Below the pieces are notes generated by a model that made no database searches, was not told where the DNA came from, and saw only the letters and a program-made list of their open reading frames with translations. This document shows, piece by piece, positions 27,243 to 56,133 of a stretch of DNA of 64,000 nt; the first letter of the stretch is position 1; every line of letters starts with the position of its first letter. The translations under genes and the position numbers were made by a program. Source of the DNA: Lasiodiplodia sp. COLG20 (Eukaryota; Ascomycota; Dothideomycetes; Botryosphaeriales; Botryosphaeriaceae); the NCBI GenBank assembly GCA_009801085.1, contig VNWV01000004.1:1550001-1614000 (forward strand), in the 5' to 3' direction.

Positions 27243-28091
27243 ATGGATTTCGCCACTGGAACCGTCAACCTTTTCAATGTTGCTCTAGATTTCTTTGAAC
27301 GCATCCAACTCGCACGAGACTTCCAGAAAGATTTCGCAATCCATCAAATCAAGCTCGATATTATCCAACTCCGCCTATCACGCTGGGGCGAGGTTACCGC
27401 GATTAACAAACAAAGTCAAAATGCTCAGACGACGAGTAATTGCTCCGATCTGGACTGGCAGGCGGCAAGAATCCTTGAGCAAATCCGAGACACGTACGAG
27501 AAGGCACAGGAGGATGCCAGCGGCATGAGACCGGGGAGCAACGCGATCGAGGAAGCGCCACTCGACCCCGAGACCCACATGAATGATCGGCTCAAGCGTC
27601 TACGCACAAAGCTTCGCCACTGTCTAAGGAAATCAACGTCCGATGCAGCCCAACTCGGTCATCGCATCAAATGGGCCTTTTACAAGAAGAGCCACTTCGA
27701 GGGGTTCGTCGAGGACATTTCAGCGCTCCTTGACGCGCTCGAGCAGCTCCTCCCCGAAGATGCCAGGAAACAGCTGCAAGAGCTCAGCAAGGAAGAATGC
27801 GCAGATCTCGGCAAGCCGGCTCTCGAGACACTCCGAGATGTCGTCGAGGACTGCGATCCATGGATGAAGCTCGCCGTGAGCGAGGAGCTCAGCAAGGGCT
27901 CTTATGCTGGAGTCAAGTTCGTGAATAAGGGGACCAACTACGGTCAGCAATCGACAATTCACAATGGCTCGGTGGAGATCAATGGTGCCTCCTACGGGAA
28001 GCAAAATAGAATCGTCAACAATTGGGCAAAGGCGGTTAGACAGGGTGGAGATCGACATTTTCAACCTGCAGGGTTACCCATTAGCAACTGA
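27243..28091 (+). CDS. HeLo-domain protein with C-terminal amyloid-like motif repeats (HET-S type)
   Basis: Single-exon gene, 282 residues. Residues 1 to about 218 match the HeLo domain of Podospora HET-s/HET-S: LFNVALDFFERIQLA near the N-terminus, LRLSRWGEVTAIN at about 42-54, and KWAFYKKSHFEGFVEDISALLDALEQLLPE in the last helices. In this family the domain is a cell-death executioner whose N-terminal hydrophobic segment inserts in the plasma membrane once the C-terminal segment becomes amyloid. Residues 224-261 hold two 18-residue-spaced copies of a motif, GTNYGQQSTIHNG (230-242) and GASYGKQNRIVNN (248-260). The first copy is nearly the same as the N-terminal motif of the NLR encoded 1.15 kb downstream. 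The start is the ATG before DFATG; the frame upstream has no other ATG. Whether the short N-terminus is lytic is untested. Confidence 0.9.
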   Translation: MDFATGTVNLFNVALDFFERIQLARDFQKDFAIHQIKLDIIQLRLSRWGEVTAINKQSQNAQTTSNCSDLDWQAARILEQIRDTYEKAQEDASGMRPGSNAIEEAPLDPETHMNDRLKRLRTKLRHCLRKSTSDAAQLGHRIKWAFYKKSHFEGFVEDISALLDALEQLLPEDARKQLQELSKEECADLGKPALETLRDVVEDCDPWMKLAVSEELSKGSYAGVKFVNKGTNYGQQSTIHNGSVEINGASYGKQNRIVNNWAKAVRQGGDRHFQPAGLPISN

Positions 28092-29240
28092 TACGCTGCT
28101 GTAGCTAGAGCCCCTCATTGGGGGTCTTGCTTGGGGGTTACATGATTCGTTGAATACATATTACTGTCTTTCTTTTGACTTCCTGTTGCCTGCAGATCGA
28201 TCCATGTGCGTGACAATTCATCTTAGTTGCGTGCTTGTGGGTGCAGACATTGGGGTGCACGACCTTATGCAGAGAGTCCACCTGATAGCACAGAACCCTG
28301 TATCATAGCGAGCCAGGTCAGCGCAGCACCACACGGCCACTACAGAGCCGCAGGGAGCGGTGGGGCGAGACGGGACGGACAGGGTATGCTCTCGTAATGC
28401 CGGGGCGACGGGCGCGAGCGTGCGAGGTTCCCTATCTAAGTCCCATGCTACGGAGTGGATCCACGACAGACTTGAGCGGAGGGCAAGGCTGTGATAGCCG
28501 TTTATCTCAATGAGTTGCTGAGCCAGCAAGCCTTTGGAGCGGTGCCCGGCCTTCTCGTGTAGCTTGCTGATTGGTGTTGTTTGGTGTGGGTATTCCCTGG
28601 ACGTCATTCAGCCTTGCCATCGTTTACTTTTGCTATTCTGGTCAAGGCAGCAACAACTGGGCCAAGGGCCTGTCCCATGGCTCTCTGACTCTGCTTACCT
28701 TCAGTGAGACAAAGCGAATTGTCACACCCATAATCTACTCTCCCACTTAAGCTTATAGCACAGAAACTGAGCGTCCTTATTTCTTGTGCGACATGGAGTA
28801 ATACTAAGAATTTGGTCAATTGGTTCTGTGGAAATGAGATGGTCGACAAGCCTTGCTGTTATCGCGCTGTGGGGAAGGATGTCGTATCAAGTAGCCGTAA
28901 GTGGGCTGATTGTGTAACCTCACCCCTATCAGGCCTCACTGAAGCCTCGCCTACTTGCTTCAACGCGCACACGTACGACACGGTGGACCGCCGGTTGATT
29001 ACTGTCGGCACGATTCTGCCGCACGCCCACTCGAAGATCGTGGACCCTTTGGTGGGTCTGCTGCCTGTTCATTTTCTGGGAAACTCAATGATAGATCCAC
29101 CTTTCGGCTTCGATTCCGGGACGTGGGTAGTCACAGTCAGATTTCTCGCCTGGTCAAGTAGTGCCCCTGCCGAAAAGCCACGTCGGTTACTGAACCAGTT
29201 CTGACTGTACTTATCTATAAAAATCAGCAGCTCGGTCAAC
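28092..29240. other. spacer between the HeLo gene and the NLR gene
   Basis: About 1.15 kb without a recognised gene on either strand. It carries the HeLo 3' flank, including a small hairpin CCCCTCATTGGGG just after the stop, and the NLR promoter. Confidence 0.5.
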
Positions 29241-32200
29241 ATGGATTCAGTTCCACACAACGCAAAAATGGCCGAGCATAGCTCATCTGTGGTGGCATTT
29301 GCCACTACTGGTGACAATTATGGCTACCAAACCACAATCCACAATGGAAATACGACGATCAGTATGTCTATGCTGCTTAAATATTTCATTGTCGCCGCAA
29401 TACTAAGAATCTCTAACAGATATTTCCGACTCGAAGCCTCCAAAATCGCCCAAGCAAATCGCCGAAGTGCCGCATAAACGGAATCAAAGGAGAAGGATGA
29501 AGTATGAGGGAACTTGCGATTGGTTGCTTGAAAAAGATGAGTTCAAGGCATGGATCGATGAAGCAAACAATCGCTCGGCCCTGTGGCTTCAGGGAAAGCG
29601 TATGCTCACGGAAATTCGCGTTTCTCAGATGTGACTCGGTGCTGACATCCTCGCAGTTGGATGCGGAAAGTCAATGTTACTGCATGTAACTCCTGTCCCT
29701 TCATTATTTCCTTTCCATCACTCCAGTAATGACTCACATGTTTTAAAGAAAAACTAACTTTAATTCAATGTAGGTCCCGAGTGATTGACTGGATTGATGA
29801 CTTTGGCAAGAAACGTCCAACCCACCTTCTCTACTTCTACATTGGTTTTGAAAACGAACAACCGAAATTTATGCAAAATCTGCTGTCAGTCTTCTGGGAC
29901 CAGATTAGCGTGGAAGAGTTGCCCGAGATGTTGAAAAAGGGCATCGGAAAACGGCCCTTCGAGGAGGATCAGCGTTCGTTGTTCGACTTTTTAGCCGAAA
30001 CCGAGTGCCCAGTGTACATTGTTGTCGATGCGTTGGACCGGCTGAACAACAAGAATCGGACTCTGCTATTGAAATCCTTTAACCGTCTTCTCACTCAAAG
30101 TCAAACCAGTCAAGGTAAATCTCGGGTTTCGCTGCTTGTGAGTTCCCGTGATTACCAAGGCCTCCAGGAATTGCAGGCGCACAAACCCCTTCACATCAAG
30201 ATGGAGCCCAAGGACAATGCCGATGATATTCGAGTGTACTTGGAGAAGAAGCTCGGAACAAATCTCCTTTGTGGAAGGCCTGACCGGGAGAGGGAAATTG
30301 CAAAGAATCAAGCCCTCAGCAAGTTGACAGAAAACGCATCTGGGATGTACGTTTGCTGATTGTCTCCCTTCCTTGCAACAGCTAACGTGTGATAAAAAAC
30401 CAGGTTCCTTTGGGCCAAGCTACAGGCCCTGAATATCTGCTTGAACACAACAAAGGCTGGTGTGTTGGATGACCTTGACAACCTCACTTTGCCGAAAGAC
30501 ATAAAACAGATGTACAAAAAGATTGCCAAAGGGTTTGAGCATGATGATGAAACCAATCCTGGACAACAGACAACGGAGAAAGACGATGGAACCAATCCTG
30601 GACAACAGACAACGGAGAAAGACAAGGAGATCGCCAGACGAACTACAGCTCTACTCTCACATGCAACGCGATCAATTCCTCGACGAGCTTTGGTAGTAGG
30701 TGTTGCGCTCGAGACAAACGACGGGAATCCTAACGGAGCTTTTGCCACAGAGCTGGAAACCTACCCGTCGATTATTATCCGGGCGTGCAAACACCTGGTG
30801 GAGTTAGACGAAGAGCTCGGGGTATTCCAGTTCTGTCACGCGTCTGTCTACGACTTTTTCAGAGAGTTTGAGCCACAGAAAACTCATTTCCGCGTTGCAA
30901 AACTCAGCTTATCACACTTGTGCTCATCGAAATTCTCGAGAGGACCGTTTGAAGATGCTTATTGGTTCAATCCTGGGCCTCTCGAGCCTTTCTTGCAACT
31001 CTATCCGTTCCTGGAATTTGCTTCCTGTCACTGGGCCTACAGAACGACAGAGAGTACCGTGAAAGATCAAAAGCAGCTCAAAGACCGCATATTCGAGCTT
31101 TGCAAGAAGCCTAAAAACATGCACCTGTCCTTTCAGGTATACTTGTTTACCCTGGGACGATCCTTGACGGCTGGGATATGCCATGCGCACATACTCAGTC
31201 ACTTTAGTCTTGTCCAATTCTTCGATGATTTTCACAAAAAGGGCTGGCTGGATCCACGAAGGCGTGATGGTGACGGCTTAACGGCGATGCACTGGGCCAT
31301 CAGAAGCGAGACCGAGACAACCGATGAAAAGTGTAAGACCGAGACAATTGATGAAGAGAATGAGACCGGAGCAATCGATGAAGAGAGTGAATCCGAGACA
31401 ATCAACGAAGAGAGTGAGATCGGACACACAGCTCCTGTGTTGGAAAAACTCATCGAGTACGGAGGGCGGAAAGACGCCCAGGACAACAAGGGACGCACTC
31501 CTCTCTACTACGCTTCTCGGTATGGAAAACTGGACGCGGTGAAGTTACTCCGGAAGAAAAGGGCGAAAGTGGATCTTCGGAGCAAACGATACGGATCGGC
31601 CTTATTGGTGGCCTGCTACAACCACCACGGGAAAATCATCAAGGAACTTCTCAAAGCCGGCGCCGGCGTGAACTTGAATAGTACCTTTGGAACTCCTCTT
31701 CACGCGATTGCCTCAATTGGTTGTAGAAAGTGCGCCGGATTGTTACTCACGAAGCGAAGATTCTTGGGGTCGCTTCGTCTAGACGTTTACGGAGGCTACT
31801 TCGGAACAGCTCTTCATGCGGCAGCGTACAATGGCCATCCTGGAGTTGTAAAATTGCTTCTAGAGAAGGGCTCTGATGTCGGCAAAATGAGCGAAACCCT
31901 TGGAAGCACCCTAACTGCGGCAGCAGCAGGGTGCTATGAATCGTGGGATCCGACCCGTTTCGTGAAGGTTTTCAGACTGCTGTTTGAATACGGAGTGGAT
32001 GTTAACGCACAAGGTGGAGTCCACGGGACGGCCCTTCACGCCGCGGCAACTTTCGGTCACGAGATTCTTGTCAAACTGCTCTTAGACCAGAATGCAGACG
32101 TCACAGCGGCGGGGCGGATGGGAACTGCATACATTGCTGCCAAAGATGGAGGCTATGACAAGATCATGAAGCTGCTGGTTCAGAAAGACCCAAATGTCGC

Positions 32201-33923
32201 TAATGCGGATGGAAATGCGTACAACCGCCCCTTTGCCTCAGATGGACCAGACGAGAGTGTTGAGACGCCGCTTCATCAGTGCTGGGTCCGACTGTTCAAG
32301 TTTGCGGTGGCAACAAATGATCGTCTCCGAATCGTGTCGATGCTATCGGCCGGCATTAAGGTCTTCGAGCGATCCATTAAAGAGGACCAGAACAACGTCG
32401 TTGCGGGGATGGCGTCTGTTGGAGAAGCCATATTCGAGGCTGTAATATCTCTGGCCACTGAAGGACAAGCGAGTGAAAGAGAAAGACCATCCAAGGATGT
32501 GATCCACGCCATTTCAAACATGCTTCGCTCAGTCAAGAAAGATCTGAGATGGAAGCTTATGTTGCTGTGTGGAGGGTTTGGCTTGAACATGGTCATTGAA
32601 GCGGACCAGAACCAAGTTTCCGATCAGCCAAGACTACCTCTGCGCACAGACTCTACATACGAACAGGATAGTCTGGAAGGAAGTCATCCATATATCCTTG
32701 ATCAGCTTACCCAAGCTGCAGTGGCTATACTGGAATGCGCTTTGGTCAACGACAATCGCGGGGCCGTCACCGTGCTTGCCAACATCTGGACCCGGGCTTT
32801 GTACAAAGTCATGTCACGCGGCGAGTTTGGCAAGAAGATGTTGGAAGTCCTAGTCCAGAATCGCGCAGCTCAGCTCAAGAAAATCATGATCGATGATAAC
32901 TTAGAGCCCCAGAAGAGACTCGAGCAAGCTAAAACATTGGCCCACGTTGGGGTAGAACTACTTGTCACGGCGCTGAGACGAGGCCGAGACAATGAGGCAT
33001 ATAAGCTCTTGGCTAGTAGTCTAGCAAAGCTCTGGGTCTCGTCGCTGGAAGATGTTTTGAATCTGGATGGAAGACGCCAGGCTGAGGTCCGACAATTGGT
33101 TGAGACGTTGGCGCAGAAATTCCAGGCTGCAGTGGATCATACCGACAAGGAGAGCGTCTACAATATTGCAGACGCTGCCATTGAAATACTGAAAACAACA
33201 GCTCTGAGCCGCAGCGAAGCTCTCATGGAGGTTTTATCCACAATGTGGGCAGACAAGTGGGCGACTGCGATGGAAAGAAAAGTACTCAAGTCCCAAATCG
33301 ACCGGTTGATCGAAGTTAGAGCGAAAGAGTACAGGGAATTCATCAACAGAGAAAAGCGAGACGAGGCTCTGGGATTAGCTGCTGTATCCATGGGGCTCCT
33401 CAATGCAGCAATTTCCAAGGGCTTTGAAGCAATGTCCCAAACGCTCATAAGAACAATCACCGCAGACCTTGAATGGACCATCGACACTACAACCGTTTTG
33501 CAATCGCAACCACTGGATCTCATGGCCTTTTTAGACTCATTTGCGAAGATCATAACTGTGGCTAGAAGGGAGAGCCGTCTCACAAACTTGGACGGCATGA
33601 TGAAGGCAGTTTTAAGAGTCTTCCAAAGTTTTCCAAGGTCTATCTCAGAGACTCTAAATGATTTCATGGGTCAGCGTGTTCGGACGTCCCAACAACAGGA
33701 TGAGCCTGAAATTCAGGCTGAACATGTGGACCCAGGGCTTGAATTACGGCTAGAGCAAAGCTCCATAGCGGTCGCCACCCTTCTTCACATGGCGTTGCAG
33801 GGCGGTACTGTGCCGGCAGCATTGACGAATATGGGAATTGTCCTGCTTGGTGAGATCAGGAAGAAAGGGAATACTGGGCAAGACACAGAGGTTATTCGGT
33901 TTCTCGAGGAGCAGGAACAATAA
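29241..33923 (+). CDS. NACHT-ankyrin NLR with N-terminal amyloid-like motif
   Basis: Exons 29241-29361, 29420-29599, 29657-29681, 29774-30346 and 30404-33923 join to 1,472 residues. Residues 18-40 carry the motif VxFxxxGDNYGYQTTIHNGNTTI, shared with the HeLo protein; no other effector domain precedes the NACHT. A linker with CDWLLEKDEFKAWID leads to Walker A GKLGCGKS (99-106), split by intron 2, and Walker B YIVVDALDRL (about 190-199). HASVYDFF marks the usual NACHT C-terminal winged-helix region. Ankyrin repeats span about 585-895 (GTALHAAAYNGHPGVVKLLLEKG type). The last 570 residues are helical and unrecognised. Intron 3 appears to use a GC donor (TTACT|GCATGT), which restores GKSMLLSRVI; a GT donor six bases upstream would also keep frame but delete two residues. 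Two in-frame minisatellites are present. Proposed role: ligand sensing and templating of the HeLo executioner. Confidence 0.88.
29292..29361 (+). other. NLR copy of the shared amyloid-like motif (coding)
   Basis: Encodes VVAFATTGDNYGYQ then TTIHNGNTTI at the end of exon 1. Against HeLo residues 224-246 it is identical at 13 of 23 positions, including the core NYGxQxTIHNG. The intron immediately after it isolates the motif as an exon unit. Confidence 0.8.
30549..30626 (+). repeat. in-frame 39-bp tandem duplication in the NLR
   Basis: Two adjacent 13-codon units, (E/G)TNPGQQTTEKD(D/K), at 30549-30587 and 30588-30626, nearly identical in DNA. They insert a hydrophilic loop at about residues 349-374, between the NACHT core and the winged-helix region. 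Confidence 0.9.
31311..31418 (+). repeat. in-frame 27-bp minisatellite, four units, in the NLR
   Basis: Four 9-codon units (TETTDEKCK, TETIDEENE, TGAIDEESE, SETINEESE) at 31311, 31338, 31365 and 31392. They form an acidic insertion at about residues 603-638, between the two helices of the first ankyrin repeat. Confidence 0.92.
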
Positions 33924-34615: not shown

Positions 34616-36745
34616 ATGTCGGCTTGTGTGGATTGCCGCGAGATTCTACGCCACCAGTCGACCTTCGAGACACCAATTCTCAAACGCTTCTCCTTCTCTG
34701 ATCTGCAAACCCACTCAAAGACCAAGTCTTGTGGATTGTGTAGAATCATACTTTTCAGTATCGAATATCTGACAGATCCTGAGAGTCCGCGTGACTTGCC
34801 AGAATGCCGTTGCCTGGCAGAGGCGGTAATGAACAAGCCCGAATATCTGGTAGTGAGCGTCTCTGTCTCCTCAAAGGCTTTCGATAACCAAAAGAGCGGG
34901 AGGCCTCGCGACATCTACAAAATAATCTTCAACTTGTTGCCAAACTGCGACCATGCAGTTGATGATGAGCTGTTCGAGTTCAGGTATACAGTGCACGCAG
35001 AGTATGGTATTATCCATAGCCCCTTAAAAATTATTCGATATTGGTTGTCTCATATGATTCACTCTAGACAACCCCAGCGCGAGCTGCGTTAGTCAAAGGG
35101 CATCAGACCCATCCACTGATTCTCCTGAGGCGTACGGCAAAATTCTCGAATGGGTCGCGGCCTGTGACCGGGAGCATACGCTCTGCCGTCGGGATGCTCC
35201 CATGCGTTTGCCAACCCGAGTCATAGACGTCGGCTCGCAGGATGGGACGTATGGCCCAAGATTGCACATCAGTCGTCTGGACGAGTATCATCCTTACCTC
35301 ACTCTCTCGTATTGTTGGGGCACGGCCCAGCCAATGCATCTCAGGAGCACCAACCTGGAAGGTAGAACACACCACTACCACTGCACTGTGACGACTTGCT
35401 GATAGAAACAGAAATATGCGGCGGATTCGACGCGTCCACCCTCCCAAAGTCTCTGCAAGACGCAATCACGATCACAAAGCAGCTCAACTTCCGCTACCTG
35501 TGGGTTGACTCGCTCTGCATCATCCAGGACTCAGACGAGGATAAGTCTCACGAGATAAGCAACATGGCCAACGTCTACAAAGGCTCTCACCTGACAATCA
35601 ACGCTGCCAAAGCGTACAGCTGCAACGAGGGGTTTCTGGAGCCCCAGCCTTTAACGCGATCATATCGGGATCCCAATCTGGCCGTAAGGGTGCCACTTCT
35701 GTACGGAGACGAGGAGCTCGGTCAAGTCATACTCGAAGAGGACATATTCTGCGCTGATCCGGGTGAACCCACTTACCGCCGGGCTTGGACATTTCAAGAG
35801 CGCCTGCTCTCGAGAAGGCAGCTCATCTACGGATTCGACACGCTGACCTGGAAATGCACAACGACGACATGGAACTGGGTCACATGGCCACGCTTCTGCT
35901 TCCAGACACCAATCCTCGGATCTCTCGCTCTGCCATCAGACGACATAGTCACGAAATTCAGTGAGGAGTCCCTTGAGCCTCCAGCCGGCGACCTATCCCT
36001 GTGTAAAACCCCCGACTTCGGTAACGCCCCCCAATGGCGCACAGCCAGCTGGCCCTACTTCCAGCAATACTGGCTCGAGCTGGTCGGCATCTACTCGCCG
36101 CTGGGCCTGACGGACTCCGCCGACAAGCTCCCCGGCATCGCCGGCGTCGCGGCCGAAGTGTCTCGCGTCTCCGCCGCCACTGGGCTGCCCGCCGGGCGGT
36201 ATCTGGCCGGGTTATGGGAGGCCGATCTCCCGCGACAGCTGCTCTGGACGGTGTACTACCCCTCCAAGCCGGAACGCGGGAGTCGCCCTTACCGCGCGCC
36301 GTCGTGGTCGTGGGCGTCGGCTGCTGGAGACATTTACGCGCATTATCCCTGGGTGATTCGGGACTATCGCTCTCATCCAGCCGCACAGATCATCGAATGT
36401 TCGACGACGCCGGTTCGTGCTGAGGCGCCGTTCGGACAGGTTAAGGATGGCTTCTTGAAGATCAGAGCGAGGTTGGTCAAGGGAACGGCCATGGGAGAGC
36501 ATTTGGGCTCCAGCGATGGGCCGATTACGGGAGAGCGAGAGTTCTGCCAGGTGGACGTGGTCGAGTCAGTGGAGGCTGCGAAAGAGCAAGCTCTCTCCTC
36601 CTGGTGGGCTCAGCTGGGGGAGTGCTGCGGTTTGGTTCTTGAGAAAGTAGAATCTGGCGAAGGACTGTATCGGCGGGTGGGAATCTTCCATTCGGAGACG
36701 ACGTCTTTTCCAGACGTTGAGCCATCAGTGTTCACCATCATTTGA
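34616..36745 (+). CDS. HET-domain (heterokaryon incompatibility) protein
   Basis: Exons 34616-35006, 35068-35361 and 35406-36745 join to 674 residues. The N-terminus has two Cys pairs (CVDC, CGLC) followed by the usual leader to the HET domain. The domain carries YLTLSYCWG (207-215), LPKSLQDAI, FRYLWVDSLCIIQD (257-270) and RRAWTFQERLLSRR (about 353-366). The C-terminal half contains YRAPSWSWASA, common in this family. Intron 1 gives the join EYDNPSASC; intron 2 is only 44 nt and starts GTAGAA. HET domains trigger cell death in non-self recognition and are structurally related to TIR domains. It is co-oriented with the HeLo and NLR genes, which suggests a joint incompatibility or immunity locus, but no shared motif links it to them. 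Confidence 0.9.
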
Positions 36746-53408: not shown

Positions 53409-55487
53409 TCAACCTAGAGCCACCAGTCTTACATACGATGGAATATCATCCTCACGGATAGAACACACCGTCGGTTCCAGCCGGTAAGATATGCCTTCGA
53501 TGGAATATACCGGTGCCCATAAGTTATCACCCAATTGCACAAACTCAATTCTTTTGGGCAATTTCCTCCGCCTTTCCTTGGACAAAACAAGAACTTGAGA
53601 GCCGCTATGACTAATCTTATACCCTTGCCATCCTTGAATGATATGGCGAGCAACGCGAAGCCGAACACATTTGGTCCAGAAAAATAAAAGACGTTTCAGC
53701 GTTGAAGTCTCATGGTGGCCATGCTGGGCCTTTATCACATCCACCGCATCAACAGGTGTATACTCCTCGAGAGGGTAATCCCAATACTCGTTAAGCATCC
53801 ATTTAGGCCTGAACAGGACTCTGAAATCTCCATCATCATCCAGAGCGAAGACCTGGAGGCTTTTACTGATAGAATCTTTGGGCTCCTCATGGGATGGCCT
53901 GAAGTAGTTCGGTCTGATGTTGACTCCACGAGATGGAAATTTCCAGGCAGCCCAAGTCCAGCTCGGAAAGAGCTCGACGATGTTACCATGATCGTCACAT
54001 TTGTTATTTCGTTCCAGTGGCTGATCGTGACCGTACGGCCTTCGTGTTGACCACGACAGCATGGCCCAGAGTAGTCCTTCCGGGATTCCCCAGATGTGTT
54101 CGCCCATCCCAGGGCTGAACTCCGAGAGCACCTCGGATAAAGCAACAATGCGGTCTTTTTCGTGTGAAAACTTGCGTGGCATAAATCGACGTAACAAGTT
54201 GAGATAGTTTTCAAGGCAGTCGTTTCCACTTGAAGGGACAGGCTTTCTTCTCAACAAGTCGACCCGATAATGCGGTGTAAATAGGACATCTTTGGTTGGT
54301 AGTGATTCAGCGGCAATGTCGTCTCTCCAGATTGCCTCGCCGCACCAAAAGAGCATCAGGTCGGGGATGAAAATCAAAAGTCGTCGCGAAAGAAGCATCT
54401 CTTGGAAGGTCCAACCTCTTTCGTTCCAAGTTGAATTGAGCAATGGCTCCAGGTCATTTCGTAAAACTGCCATGTGTATCCCATCAACTTCTTCACCTAA
54501 TGCTCTGCTCTGTGAGAAAGTTGTGACACGAGGCAAGCCTGCGTCTGCATCGTTTCCAGCGGCCCCGACGATCGTTACCATGGCGTTTCTGTATATGTCC
54601 CCCATAGCCCCAAGCTGACGTCCTTTATCATCATCGCAATCCTGGATAATGCAGAGACTGTCGACCCAGAGATAACGAATGTCCAATTTCCGGCAAAGAG
54701 CGATAGCGTCTCCAACGGTCCGTGAGAGCAGATGCCCATTTTCAGCCAAGTAGCCTTGTCTTTGTAGAAGTCCACAGTTTGAACTTTCCAGCTTGAGTTT
54801 GTGGTGTGCCGCTTCACCCCACACATAACTGAGAGCAGCGTATTCGCAATCTTCCGGTGCATCAATGATGCAGCTGCGTGTTGTATCGATAAGGCGGATC
54901 CTGAGGCTTTGCTTCGACATCTGCTCTTCCCCACGGCAGCTCGAATGGTCGTCGATACAAGTTTTAATCCATGACCTCGCCAGATCCACATCTAAGTTTT
55001 GCGGGTTGATAACCCTACCCCCAACCATCCCAGGACCGTCTTTGCATATGAATTTCGGGGCACAATCGTATATTGAATACTTGCAACTCCAGTCTGTCCA
55101 TTCTGAGTCGAATCCGAGATTCAAGTGGGTCGGCCTAGAGGAGGCGTGTTCCCGGCCAACTTGGATGTAGGATTGCTGCCGGATTCGAATGACTAAATCA
55201 TCCTGAAGCGTCGTGTTTTGCTTCTGTATTTGGCTCGAGAACATGAGGCGGACAGCCGGTAGGAGAGGGGCGCTCTTAGCCTTCGGTCTGGATGAAATTT
55301 CCTTTTCGTGCAGCTCGATGCTCTGGGCCAAGATTCGACAGAATGGACAGGAGGAACTCGAGAGTACATCCTTTCTATTCCACTGATATGGGAGATTGGC
55401 GAAGGTTTCCTTGTCTCCCGCACATTTGGGAAATCGAAAGAGGTTCCCAAAGTCTACTGTCCGGCAGACTGAGCAGAGTTGGTTCAT
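53409..55487 (-). CDS. HET-domain protein embedded in the enzyme cluster
   Basis: Intronless, 692 residues. N-terminal Cys pairs CSVC and CPFC, then the HET domain with YAALSYVWGEA (216-226), TVGDAIALCRKLDIRYLWVDSLCIIQD (ending about 283), MGDIYRNAMVTIVGAAG and RGWTFQEMLLSRR. The C-terminal part has SWTWAAWKFPSR, typical of HET proteins, and a long unassigned tail. The start is the first ATG of the frame (before NQLCSVC). A HET protein has no evident part in metabolism; its position splits the enzyme cluster, so it probably arrived independently or the cluster is less tight than it looks. No amyloid-like motif like that of the 27-29 kb pair was seen. Confidence 0.92.
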   Translation of the reverse strand: MNQLCSVCRTVDFGNLFRFPKCAGDKETFANLPYQWNRKDVLSSSSCPFCRILAQSIELHEKEISSRPKAKSAPLLPAVRLMFSSQIQKQNTTLQDDLVIRIRQQSYIQVGREHASSRPTHLNLGFDSEWTDWSCKYSIYDCAPKFICKDGPGMVGGRVINPQNLDVDLARSWIKTCIDDHSSCRGEEQMSKQSLRIRLIDTTRSCIIDAPEDCEYAALSYVWGEAAHHKLKLESSNCGLLQRQGYLAENGHLLSRTVGDAIALCRKLDIRYLWVDSLCIIQDCDDDKGRQLGAMGDIYRNAMVTIVGAAGNDADAGLPRVTTFSQSRALGEEVDGIHMAVLRNDLEPLLNSTWNERGWTFQEMLLSRRLLIFIPDLMLFWCGEAIWRDDIAAESLPTKDVLFTPHYRVDLLRRKPVPSSGNDCLENYLNLLRRFMPRKFSHEKDRIVALSEVLSEFSPGMGEHIWGIPEGLLWAMLSWSTRRPYGHDQPLERNNKCDDHGNIVELFPSWTWAAWKFPSRGVNIRPNYFRPSHEEPKDSISKSLQVFALDDDGDFRVLFRPKWMLNEYWDYPLEEYTPVDAVDVIKAQHGHHETSTLKRLLFFWTKCVRLRVARHIIQGWQGYKISHSGSQVLVLSKERRRKLPKRIEFVQLGDNLWAPVYSIEGISYRLEPTVCSIREDDIPSYVRLVALG

Positions 55488-56133
55488 TTCCGAAGGCTGC
55501 ACTCACAGCTGTTAGGCAAATGTGCATGGCAATCTCTCAGGCAATATAACACGACAGGTATCAAAAGCCATTCAAGCAGCTTACTTGCCTTCTTTCCTGG
55601 ATTCATTAGGGTCGGATTAGAAGATGCTGTGCTTGAAGGAAAGAGATGGTTGGAAATTAGAAATTTCAATCCAGCTTCGTTAGGCAGCAGCAATATAAAG
55701 ACCAGGGTATGCATATAAGGGGGCGGCACAGCCCTAGTAATTATTCGATAAGCATTAGATAATTCCAAAACCTACGCTTGTTGTAAAGAAAACGGCGATG
55801 GTGAATGCTTGGATAAAGACGCGGGGCACATTGCAACGCGCCAACGGTCGCCTATCCGCCGTCATCATCTTAGCCCGTGGACATTACAAGGTCGCATCGG
55901 TGTTCGAAATCTAGTTGATGTGAATACCTCGGGTCCGACCAACTTATCACGGGGTAATTTCCCAGAATGCACCGGGTCGGGGTTGATTGGTTTTCAGCGA
56001 CCCCTTCTCCTGCGGCGCAGGAGTTGAGCACATCACGTGAACAATGCATGAAGTTGGCTATGTACACTTAAATCGAAAGCTGAGGCAGCCTGATCGTAGC
56101 TTGTGGCCACTAGGCAAAATAAGAGTGAACTCC
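55488..56133. other. intergenic region HET / FAD monooxygenase
   Basis: About 650 bp without a supportable gene. Includes the HET promoter and the 3' flank of the monooxygenase. Confidence 0.5.

Follow-up and report, generated by a model that had tools for sequence, protein, structure and literature searches.

A HeLo effector and an adjoining NACHT-ankyrin NLR of Lasiodiplodia sp. COLG20 share a divergent PP-like motif

The window, the whole stretch of 64,000 nucleotides of Lasiodiplodia sp. COLG20 analysed here, contains two neighbouring genes that quite probably form a cell-death signalosome complete in itself, of the same kind as HET-S/NWD2 and HELLP/PNT1 and working through a PP-related motif. 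A HeLo effector adjoins an NLR, and the same motif is found at the C-terminus of the effector and the N-terminus of the receptor (Table 1). The gene arrangement is already known; what is unusual is the tag, a private variation on a known prion-like signalling tag. By analogy with the studied systems, a ligand would bind the ankyrin or C-terminal part of the NLR, which would then oligomerise. The clustered N-terminal motifs would form a cross-beta template, this template would convert the HeLo tail, and the converted protein would attack the membrane with its HeLo domain, leading to cell death. It is from this analogy that we infer amyloid formation, templating and killing by the pair. Since threonine stands for glycine in both partners, the channel may be kept separate from the two other PP-like pairs of the genome.

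Table 1. Features of the HeLo/NLR pair (positions are those of the window)
Feature	Position	Strand	Basis or remark
HeLo effector gene, single ORF	27243..28091	+	282 aa plus stop
HeLo domain, residues 5-189, helical	27255..27809	+	Pfam and AlphaFold2 model
HeLo C-terminal tail, residues 221-282, motif-bearing	27903..28088	+	pLDDT below 50 over 221-282
Motif copy r1, GTNYGQQSTIHNG, HeLo C-terminus	27930..27968	+	
Motif copy r2, GASYGKQNRIVNN, HeLo C-terminus, 18 residues past r1	27984..28022	+	
NLR gene, five exons in the model	29241..33923	+	
NLR exon 1, motif-bearing, followed by a canonical GT-AG intron	29241..29361	+	
Motif copy r0, GDNYGYQTTIHNG, NLR residues 24-36, exon 1	29310..29348	+	
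NLR exon 2	29420..29599	+	
NLR exon 3, encoding the larger part of the P-loop (GCGKS)	29657..29681	+	relatives' P-loops
NLR intron 3, GC donor (GCATGT), TAG acceptor	29682..29773	+	inferred from sequence
NLR exon 4, remainder of the NACHT/NPHP3_N domain	29774..30346	+	Pfam
NLR exon 5, encoding the C-terminal region up to the stop, with ankyrin repeats at about 31270-32190	30404..33923	+	Pfam

The HeLo effector and the NLR gene

The original prediction of an adjacent, co-oriented HeLo protein and NACHT-ankyrin NLR is confirmed by Pfam. The HeLo protein matches PF14479 with 106 bits (cut-off 23.2) across its annotated domain and thus belongs to the HeLo family, and the NLR matches NPHP3_N (99 bits), NACHT (28.8 bits) and Ank_2 (122.7 bits). 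An NCBIfam scan returned no family for the HeLo protein and weak ankyrin-type matches only for NLR exon 5. The HeLo protein is 95% identical to its Lasiodiplodia theobromae counterpart. Its AlphaFold2 model, in which an N-terminal helix is predicted at residues 2-19, has a HET-S-like fold: the top four Foldseek matches are the HET-s/HET-S HeLo structures 2wvn, 2wvq (chains A and B) and 2wvo, with E values of 4e-11 to 6e-10 and TM-scores by target of 0.84-0.87.

The HeLo tail is predicted to be unstructured as a monomer. Modelled alone from a single sequence, it reached a pLDDT of 45 and formed short low-confidence strands, nothing more. This would suit a non-amyloid docking of NLR and HeLo through the motif, by short beta-pairing or an adaptor contact, with killing that dispenses with prion-like templating. 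We consider such docking rather improbable, however, because studied pairs of the same layout use amyloid templating (PMC7885112, PMC5485727), and because the motif is rich in G, N and Q.

An open reading frame through the NLR requires four introns, one of them with a GC-AG donor (intron 3). Canonical GT-AG splicing of this intron throws the frame out, and the GC-AG model was adopted instead. It yields the P-loop segment GCGKSMLLSRVI. Of 11 relatives in which the P-loop could be read, 10 have a gapless, residue-for-residue counterpart of this segment (e.g., GCGKTTLMSRVI in P0041). The annotated L. theobromae model P0040 starts 15 residues before SRVIDW, which is at intron 3, and lacks the motif exon. 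One could read the uncommon GC donor, without which the frame is broken, together with the shortened P0040, as signs of a decayed pair in which the NLR is a pseudogene and the motif a fossil. Decay is very improbable in our judgement, as exons 4 and 5 are long and open, the P-loop segment aligns free of gaps, and the motif has been kept better than the end of the tail: HeLo residues 228-242 are 14/15 identical in P0002 (15/15 in L. theobromae P0001), whereas from residue 262 onward identity with P0002 falls to 8/19.

The shared motif and its class

The three motif copies are exactly as first reported, with 13 of 23 residues identical over the extended stretch. Copies r0 and r1 agree at 10 of 13 residues, and r2 agrees with each of them at 6 of 13. 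When NLR residues 1-70 were aligned locally with the 72 C-terminal residues of the HeLo protein, the score was 79, which none of 5000 double shuffles reached (maximum 45); the best of 134 other NLR segments scored 36 and the best of 28 other HeLo segments 29. At the level of sequence, the match is far beyond chance. Six of the ten residues common to r0 and r1 use different codons, so the sharing is not due to a recent DNA copy. As a DNA pattern, Y-G-x-Q-x-x-I-x-N has eight matches in the whole genome (four for the reversed control pattern). Three of them are r0, r1 and r2; four fall in short frames with 11 to 51 codons between stops, and the last in a frame of 345 codons that is unrelated.

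The motif is best read, on the alignments, as related to the PP (RHIM-like) motif, divergent in sequence but homologous in position, and not as sigma or HRAM; it would be a descendant of the PP motif or its sister. It keeps N-x-G-x-Q...G; where PP has G-phi-Q-phi-G, its core is polar, G-[QYK]-Q-[STN]-[TR], and threonine replaces the next core glycine in both receptor and effector copies. The alignment, a tail profile and the invariant G234 all put it at the position of the PP motifs in related HeLo proteins. Matches to Ses_B, the Pfam family that PMC8086366 equates with the PP motif, fall at this same place in the homologous HeLo proteins P0022 and P0024. Among 26 HeLo proteins, G234 is conserved in 26, N232, G242 and G248 in 25 each, and Q236 in 12. 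The tail profile, built from 23 homologous tails leaving out the window HeLo protein and its two closest orthologues, gave 20.6 bits (E 2e-5) on the window HeLo protein, whereas none of 1000 shuffles scored above 11.1 bits. On the window NLR motif it gave 9.1 bits, a score reached by 2 of 1000 shuffles. Among relatives' NLRs 1 of 10 exceeded the best shuffle (P0054, 15.0 bits), and the receptor exon of C23, one of the two other PP-like loci, scored 4.9 bits, that of the second (C34:614k) not being listed. Because the profile is weak on NLR motifs, the receptor side rests on the matches to cognate HeLo proteins.

The original prediction had the motif without PP features and nearer to sigma. This does not hold, since N-x-G-x-Q is kept, the motif occupies the Ses_B columns of two homologous HeLo proteins and NACHT_sigma finds no match. 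A sigma-type or HRAM-type motif is hardly credible: Q/N/G richness and two effector-side copies, as in HRAM, would favour it, but neither PF17106 (NACHT_sigma) nor PF11558 (HRAM) matches the window proteins. The PF17106 search of the genome also returned 0 matches, which is no proof of absence because control genomes were equally silent. The exclusion of HRAM had been foreseen; the r1-r2 period of 18 residues is too short for a 21-aa repeat plus loop, for which PMC4518210 gives a loop length of 6-18 aa for 154 of 155 cases. PUASM (PNP_UDP-associated motif, added 2022), likewise a class of amyloid signalling motif associated with fungal NLRs, was rejected too, as FxGxGxQxxGxGxF is absent and the effector is HeLo, not PNP_UDP.

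The proposal of a separate motif class is borne out in part: the Pfam PP model misses the motif and the strict PP core is lacking, but the PP skeleton and the homologous position tie it to PP. The core NxGxQxGxN defines the PP motif according to PMC9815663; r0 and r1 have its N, G and Q, with T and H in place of its final G and N, and among 82 proteins the strict core occurs only in P0022, P0038 and P0039. PF17046 (Ses_B) matches neither window protein nor the excised motif regions, the tail staying silent even at E 10, and a precomputed Pfam list assigns Ses_B to 2 of 39 HeLo homologues. This suggests that current surveys with Pfam profiles miss this branch of the motif. Among the full-text literature matches listed, a coverage that leaves out most subscription papers, there is no mention of the motif in Botryosphaeriaceae.

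An ordinary PP-motif pair, of the HELLP/PNT1 or HeLo-PP type known since 2012, with neutral core changes and cross-talk with other PP systems, would account for the Ses_B columns and the retained N-x-G-x-Q. HeLo with PP adjoining an NLR has been described (PMC3321046), and PP regions at 36% identity cross-seed according to PMC7885112. This account is nevertheless unlikely: beyond the missing strict core and the silent Pfam model, residue 238 is Gly in 23 of the 26 HeLo proteins and Thr only in the window protein and its close orthologues P0001 and P0002, and this Thr is mirrored in the window NLR. A more far-reaching proposal, which we offer tentatively and with the balance somewhat against it, is that the HeLo/NLR orthogroup of the window pair might carry an undescribed fungal class of amyloid signalling motif, G-x3-[GAT]-[IV]-[HN]-x-G, derived from PP/RHIM with its own core (largely polar in the window). 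The PP lineage would then have split into private dialects that prevent cross-firing of parallel death pathways, receptor and effector cores changing in step. For HRAM, PMC4518210 describes five subfamilies in which receptor and effector have diversified together, but it sets the PP and sigma groups aside. As the window pair lacks G-phi-Q-phi-G, the described RHIM interface, it raises the question of whether a RHIM-type amyloid can forgo a hydrophobic core.

Compared with known systems, the pair resembles HELLP/PNT1 (PP; Podospora anserina, and Chaetomium globosum, where a lipase gene is the third member) in its NLR beside a 4-helix-bundle killer, its short motif shared by the effector C-terminus and the NLR N-terminus and encoded in the latter by the first exon, and its N-x-G-x-Q skeleton. 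HELLP/PNT1, however, combines HeLo-like with NB-ARC-TPR and has the core G-phi-Q-phi-G, whereas the window pair combines HeLo (PF14479) with NACHT-ankyrin and has the core G-[QYK]-Q-[STN]-[TR] and two effector copies. With HET-S/NWD2 (HRAM1) it shares the HeLo fold (2wvn/2wvo), the duplicated effector motif and the single NLR motif, but it differs in its 18-aa period, its lack of a match to the HET-s Pfam profile and its ankyrin NLR, the NWD2 NLR carrying WD repeats. The sesA/sesB/het-eN (sigma) system likewise clusters an NLR and effectors that share a Q/N/G-rich motif; the window motif is shorter, is without threefold submotifs and has no NACHT_sigma match. HeLo-PP/STAND pairs also place a HeLo protein with a PP-type extension beside an NLR, and the window motif meets only part of the consensus FxGx(x)NxGLQLxGxNxGxL printed in PMC3321046.

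Other HeLo loci, partner specificity and relatives

C23 and C34:614k, the genome's other two PP-like HeLo/receptor pairs, have different cores. Three such pairs in one genome provide a natural series for finding the residues of seeding specificity. The C23 HeLo protein scores above the PF17046 cut-off and its neighbour below it; an NB-ARC search of the genome gave nine matches, none at the C23 receptor. At the HeLo/NLR locus C21, which has a HET-s-like tail, no matching motif was seen, and no receptor was recognised beside the stand-alone HeLo gene of C32. A Pfam search of nine ORFs neighbouring the window pair recognised no further effector, for example a lipase with a PP motif, among them.

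A matrix of six NLRs by six HeLo proteins, taken only from pairs with both ends readable, had the cognate partner as row maximum in 6 of 6 and as column maximum in 4, with ties in 2. No other of the 720 assignments equals the cognate sum, a count that overstates independence because three of the pairs are orthologous to one another.

The HET-S/NWD2-type two-gene layout with a shared terminal motif, also part of the original prediction, is retained, both genes together, in certain other fungi. Related HeLo/NLR pairs with consecutive tags occur in Daldinia eschscholtzii (Daesc_006887/006886) and Trichothecium roseum (N3K66_008441/008440), two Sordariomycetes, and P0011/P0053 of the Leotiomycete Sclerotinia trifoliorum, which agree in the length of their contig, are probably also adjacent. 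A single gene model covers both HeLo and NLR in Diplodia seriata (P0059) and in Trichoderma harzianum (P0021). The 9-residue pattern G-x3-[GAT]-[IVM]-[HN]-x-G, derived from the same sequences in which it was counted, occurs at the C-terminus of 27 of 40 HeLo proteins and at the N-terminus of 11 of 42 NLRs, and nowhere else in these proteins. The HeLo/NLR orthogroup has both partners in Botryosphaeriales, Xylariales, Hypocreales and Helotiales, and its HeLo side also includes Eurotiales.

A motif common to the HeLo protein and its neighbour

The window HeLo gene lies 1,149 bp from an NLR gene in the same orientation, whose Pfam domains are NPHP3_N/NACHT and ankyrin repeats. Pfam HeLo covers residues 5-189 of the HeLo protein (106 bits), and all three matches in a PDB sequence search up to E 10 are HET-s/HET-S HeLo chains. 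Foldseek with an AlphaFold2 model (26 sequences) ranks four HET-s/HET-S HeLo structures first, the only matches at E 0.001 or better. The model predicts an unstructured C-terminal tail (residues 221-282), like that described for soluble HET-S in PMC4518210.

Features of the window and of related loci on other contigs
Feature	Position	Strand	Description
HeLo gene	27243-28091	+	intronless; 282 aa
NLR gene	29241-33923	+	five exons; 1472 aa in gene model
Intron 3 of NLR	29682-29773		in P-loop; probable GC-AG intron
HET-domain gene	34616-36745	+	82 bits over ORF 35396-36742; directly downstream of NLR
HET-domain gene	53412-55502	-	116 bits over ORF 53412-55502
C23 pair	about 496 kb		Ses_B: HeLo 32 bits, neighbour 17.7 bits (below cut-off)
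C34 pair (L022)	C34:614536-620418		converging ankyrin receptor and HeLo; GQQIG common to both
C21 HeLo gene (L024)	C21:149596-150174		HET-s-like C-terminus; TAG in translated frame near start

The original prediction described three copies of a short motif, one in exon 1 of the NLR (r0) and two at the HeLo C-terminus (r1 and r2), and all three are as described, with 13 of 23 residues identical. Local alignment of the NLR and HeLo motif regions scores 79, compared with a maximum of 45 in 5000 shuffles and best scores of 36 in the rest of the NLR (134 windows) and 29 in the rest of the HeLo protein (28 windows). Codons differ at 6 of the 10 shared motif residues. A DNA pattern for Y-G-x-Q-x-x-I-x-N has eight matches in the whole 43.5 Mb genome, three of them in the window (reversed control pattern, four); none of the other five forward matches lies in a recognisable HeLo or NLR frame.

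Beyond the anatomy of genes and domains, we infer every step of the mechanism from the parallel with HET-S/NWD2 and HELLP/PNT1 (PMC5485727, PMC7885112). A ligand would cause the NLR to oligomerise, the clustered r0 motifs would form a cross-beta template, this template would convert the HeLo tail, and the converted tail would release membrane attack. The window core is polar, whereas PP and RHIM motifs are hydrophobic at the same places, so its packing would have to differ from that of the RIP1-RIP3 core treated in PMC7885112; this packing is the least certain point. The pair may serve either innate immunity or strain incompatibility.

Class of the motif

The HeLo alignment comprises the window protein and 25 of its 39 homologues. 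Its motif columns are almost invariant: G234 is found in all 26 sequences, and N232, G242 and G248 in 25 each. A second conserved element, G-x-S-[YF]-G ... [WF] (residues 243-261, alignment A1), is the stretch aligned with r2; besides G248 it has S250 in 17 sequences, G252 in 21 and W or F at 261 in 22. This element is kept across much of the HeLo set even where resemblance to r1 is gone.

Ses_B, the Pfam profile used for the PP motif in PMC8086366, recognises the motif columns (N232 to G248) in P0022 and P0024 among ten homologues scanned, and precomputed annotation assigns it to 2 of the 39. The PP core is given as NxGxQxGxN in PMC9815663, with a longer form, FxGx(x)NxGLQLxGxNxGxL, in PMC3321046. 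Of this core, N, G and Q are retained in r0 and r1, as is the Gly two places past its last position; T and H stand in place of G and N. A profile of 23 more distant HeLo tails matches the window HeLo at 20.6 bits (E 2e-5), whereas 1000 shuffles reach 11.1 at most. On the window NLR motif it scores 9.1 bits, not above shuffles, and among ten relatives' NLRs only P0054 rises above them (15.0 bits); either the copies in the receptors have diverged from those in the effectors, or a profile of this length is too short. Pfam recognised none of seven cut-out N-termini of the NLR group (the window and 6 of the ten relatives).

On the effector side, the window motif thus counts, judged by its sequence, as PP in descent and in position, but it fails the strict PP tests and we do not class it as PP. 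Sigma and HRAM were also tried as assignments, and the motif failed the tests for both. The earlier view that it is not HRAM is supported; a closer affinity to sigma is not, and neither is a lack of PP features, given the retained N, G and Q and the Ses_B columns of P0022 and P0024.

Homologous pairs and their gene models

The 39 HeLo homologues include proteins from L. theobromae (95%; Botryosphaeriaceae) and another close relative (87%); at 32-43% follow proteins from Aplosporella, Daldinia, Aspergillus, Sclerotinia, Hypoxylon, Trichoderma and others. NLR homologues number 11 in one search and 41 in another, the sets partly overlapping, with close relatives in Daldinia, Cladobotryum, Trichothecium, Hypoxylon, Sclerotinia and Fusarium, among others. 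Gene order was followed in five cases. By consecutive locus tags, the pair is adjacent in Daldinia eschscholtzii (Xylariales) and Trichothecium roseum (Hypocreales), and in Sclerotinia trifoliorum (Helotiales) the contigs of the two genes are equal in length, which points to the same adjacency. Public models from Diplodia seriata (P0059; Botryosphaeriaceae) and Trichoderma harzianum (P0021) have HeLo and NLR domains in one protein, probably two co-oriented neighbours merged.

In the window NLR, a GC donor is required at intron 3 for the P-loop (GCGKSMLLSRVI) to stay in register with relatives. The P-loop so read aligns without gaps with 10 of the 11 relatives having a readable P-loop; the eleventh, P0054, diverges exactly at the intron site.

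The pattern G-x3-[GAT]-[IVM]-[HN]-x-G marks 27 of 40 HeLo proteins within their final 70 residues and 11 of 42 NLR-search proteins within their initial 60, the window being counted in each set; since it was derived from these same sequences, its only real test is its absence elsewhere in them, and no other occurrence was found. Ten of the 16 NLR relatives above 1280 bits carry it. Of the six without it, P0040, P0044, P0055, P0056 and P0057 start near or past the point where the NACHT domain begins, and the sixth is P0059, the merged HeLo and NLR model. The annotation of the L. theobromae NLR, P0040, opens 15 residues ahead of SRVIDW and therefore leaves out the motif exon. Six of the 16 related NLR models are merged or without this exon, and such motifs would thus escape surveys.

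Other HeLo loci in the same genome

At HeLo residue 238, 23 of 26 tails have Gly; the only ones with Thr are those of the window, P0001 (L. theobromae) and P0002. The equivalent NLR position is Thr in the window and Gly (7) or Ala (3) in the ten other pattern-bearing NLRs; the receptors paired with P0001 and P0002 are unreadable at this end.

Eleven HeLo matches were found in the genome, and the surroundings of four were inspected besides the window. Two, on contigs C23 and C34, combine a PP-like HeLo tail with a neighbour bearing a matching motif. The nucleotide-binding part of the C23 neighbour is weakly recognised (NACHT 19.4 bits; cut-off 26.7), and this neighbour is not among the matches of a genome NB-ARC search. 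In the C34 ankyrin receptor, the ORF with the presumed NACHT part has no Pfam match; the first exon of this receptor has several N-x-G-like near-repeats ahead of the motif. The C21 HeLo gene lies beside an NPHP3_N match, with no motif seen in the neighbour's upstream frames, and its TAG may mark an intron or a broken gene. No receptor was recognised beside the C32 HeLo gene.

Six receptors were scored against six effectors, using pairs with both ends readable; the merged models, the C21 locus and L. theobromae P0022/P0061 (contigs equal in length, NLR end missing) were set aside. In all six rows the highest score belongs to the cognate effector, with two columns tied, and the diagonal sum of 323 is not reached by any other of the 720 assignments. 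From these sequences we infer that the three motif cores of the genome may keep death pathways apart. PMC7885112 reports no cross-seeding among HET-S, HELLF and HELLP, but also cross-seeding between PP motifs at 36% identity, so that the three cores of the genome may cross-talk.

Two HET-domain genes lie in the window. HET matches number at least 150 in the genome (150 of 429 candidates scored), so the closeness of such genes to HeLo/receptor loci may reflect chance or clustering. The C21 locus has a HET-like reading frame close by, at about 146 kb, seen in translation only and not among the HET matches listed, and a HET match is also found near the C34 pair, at C34:623137.
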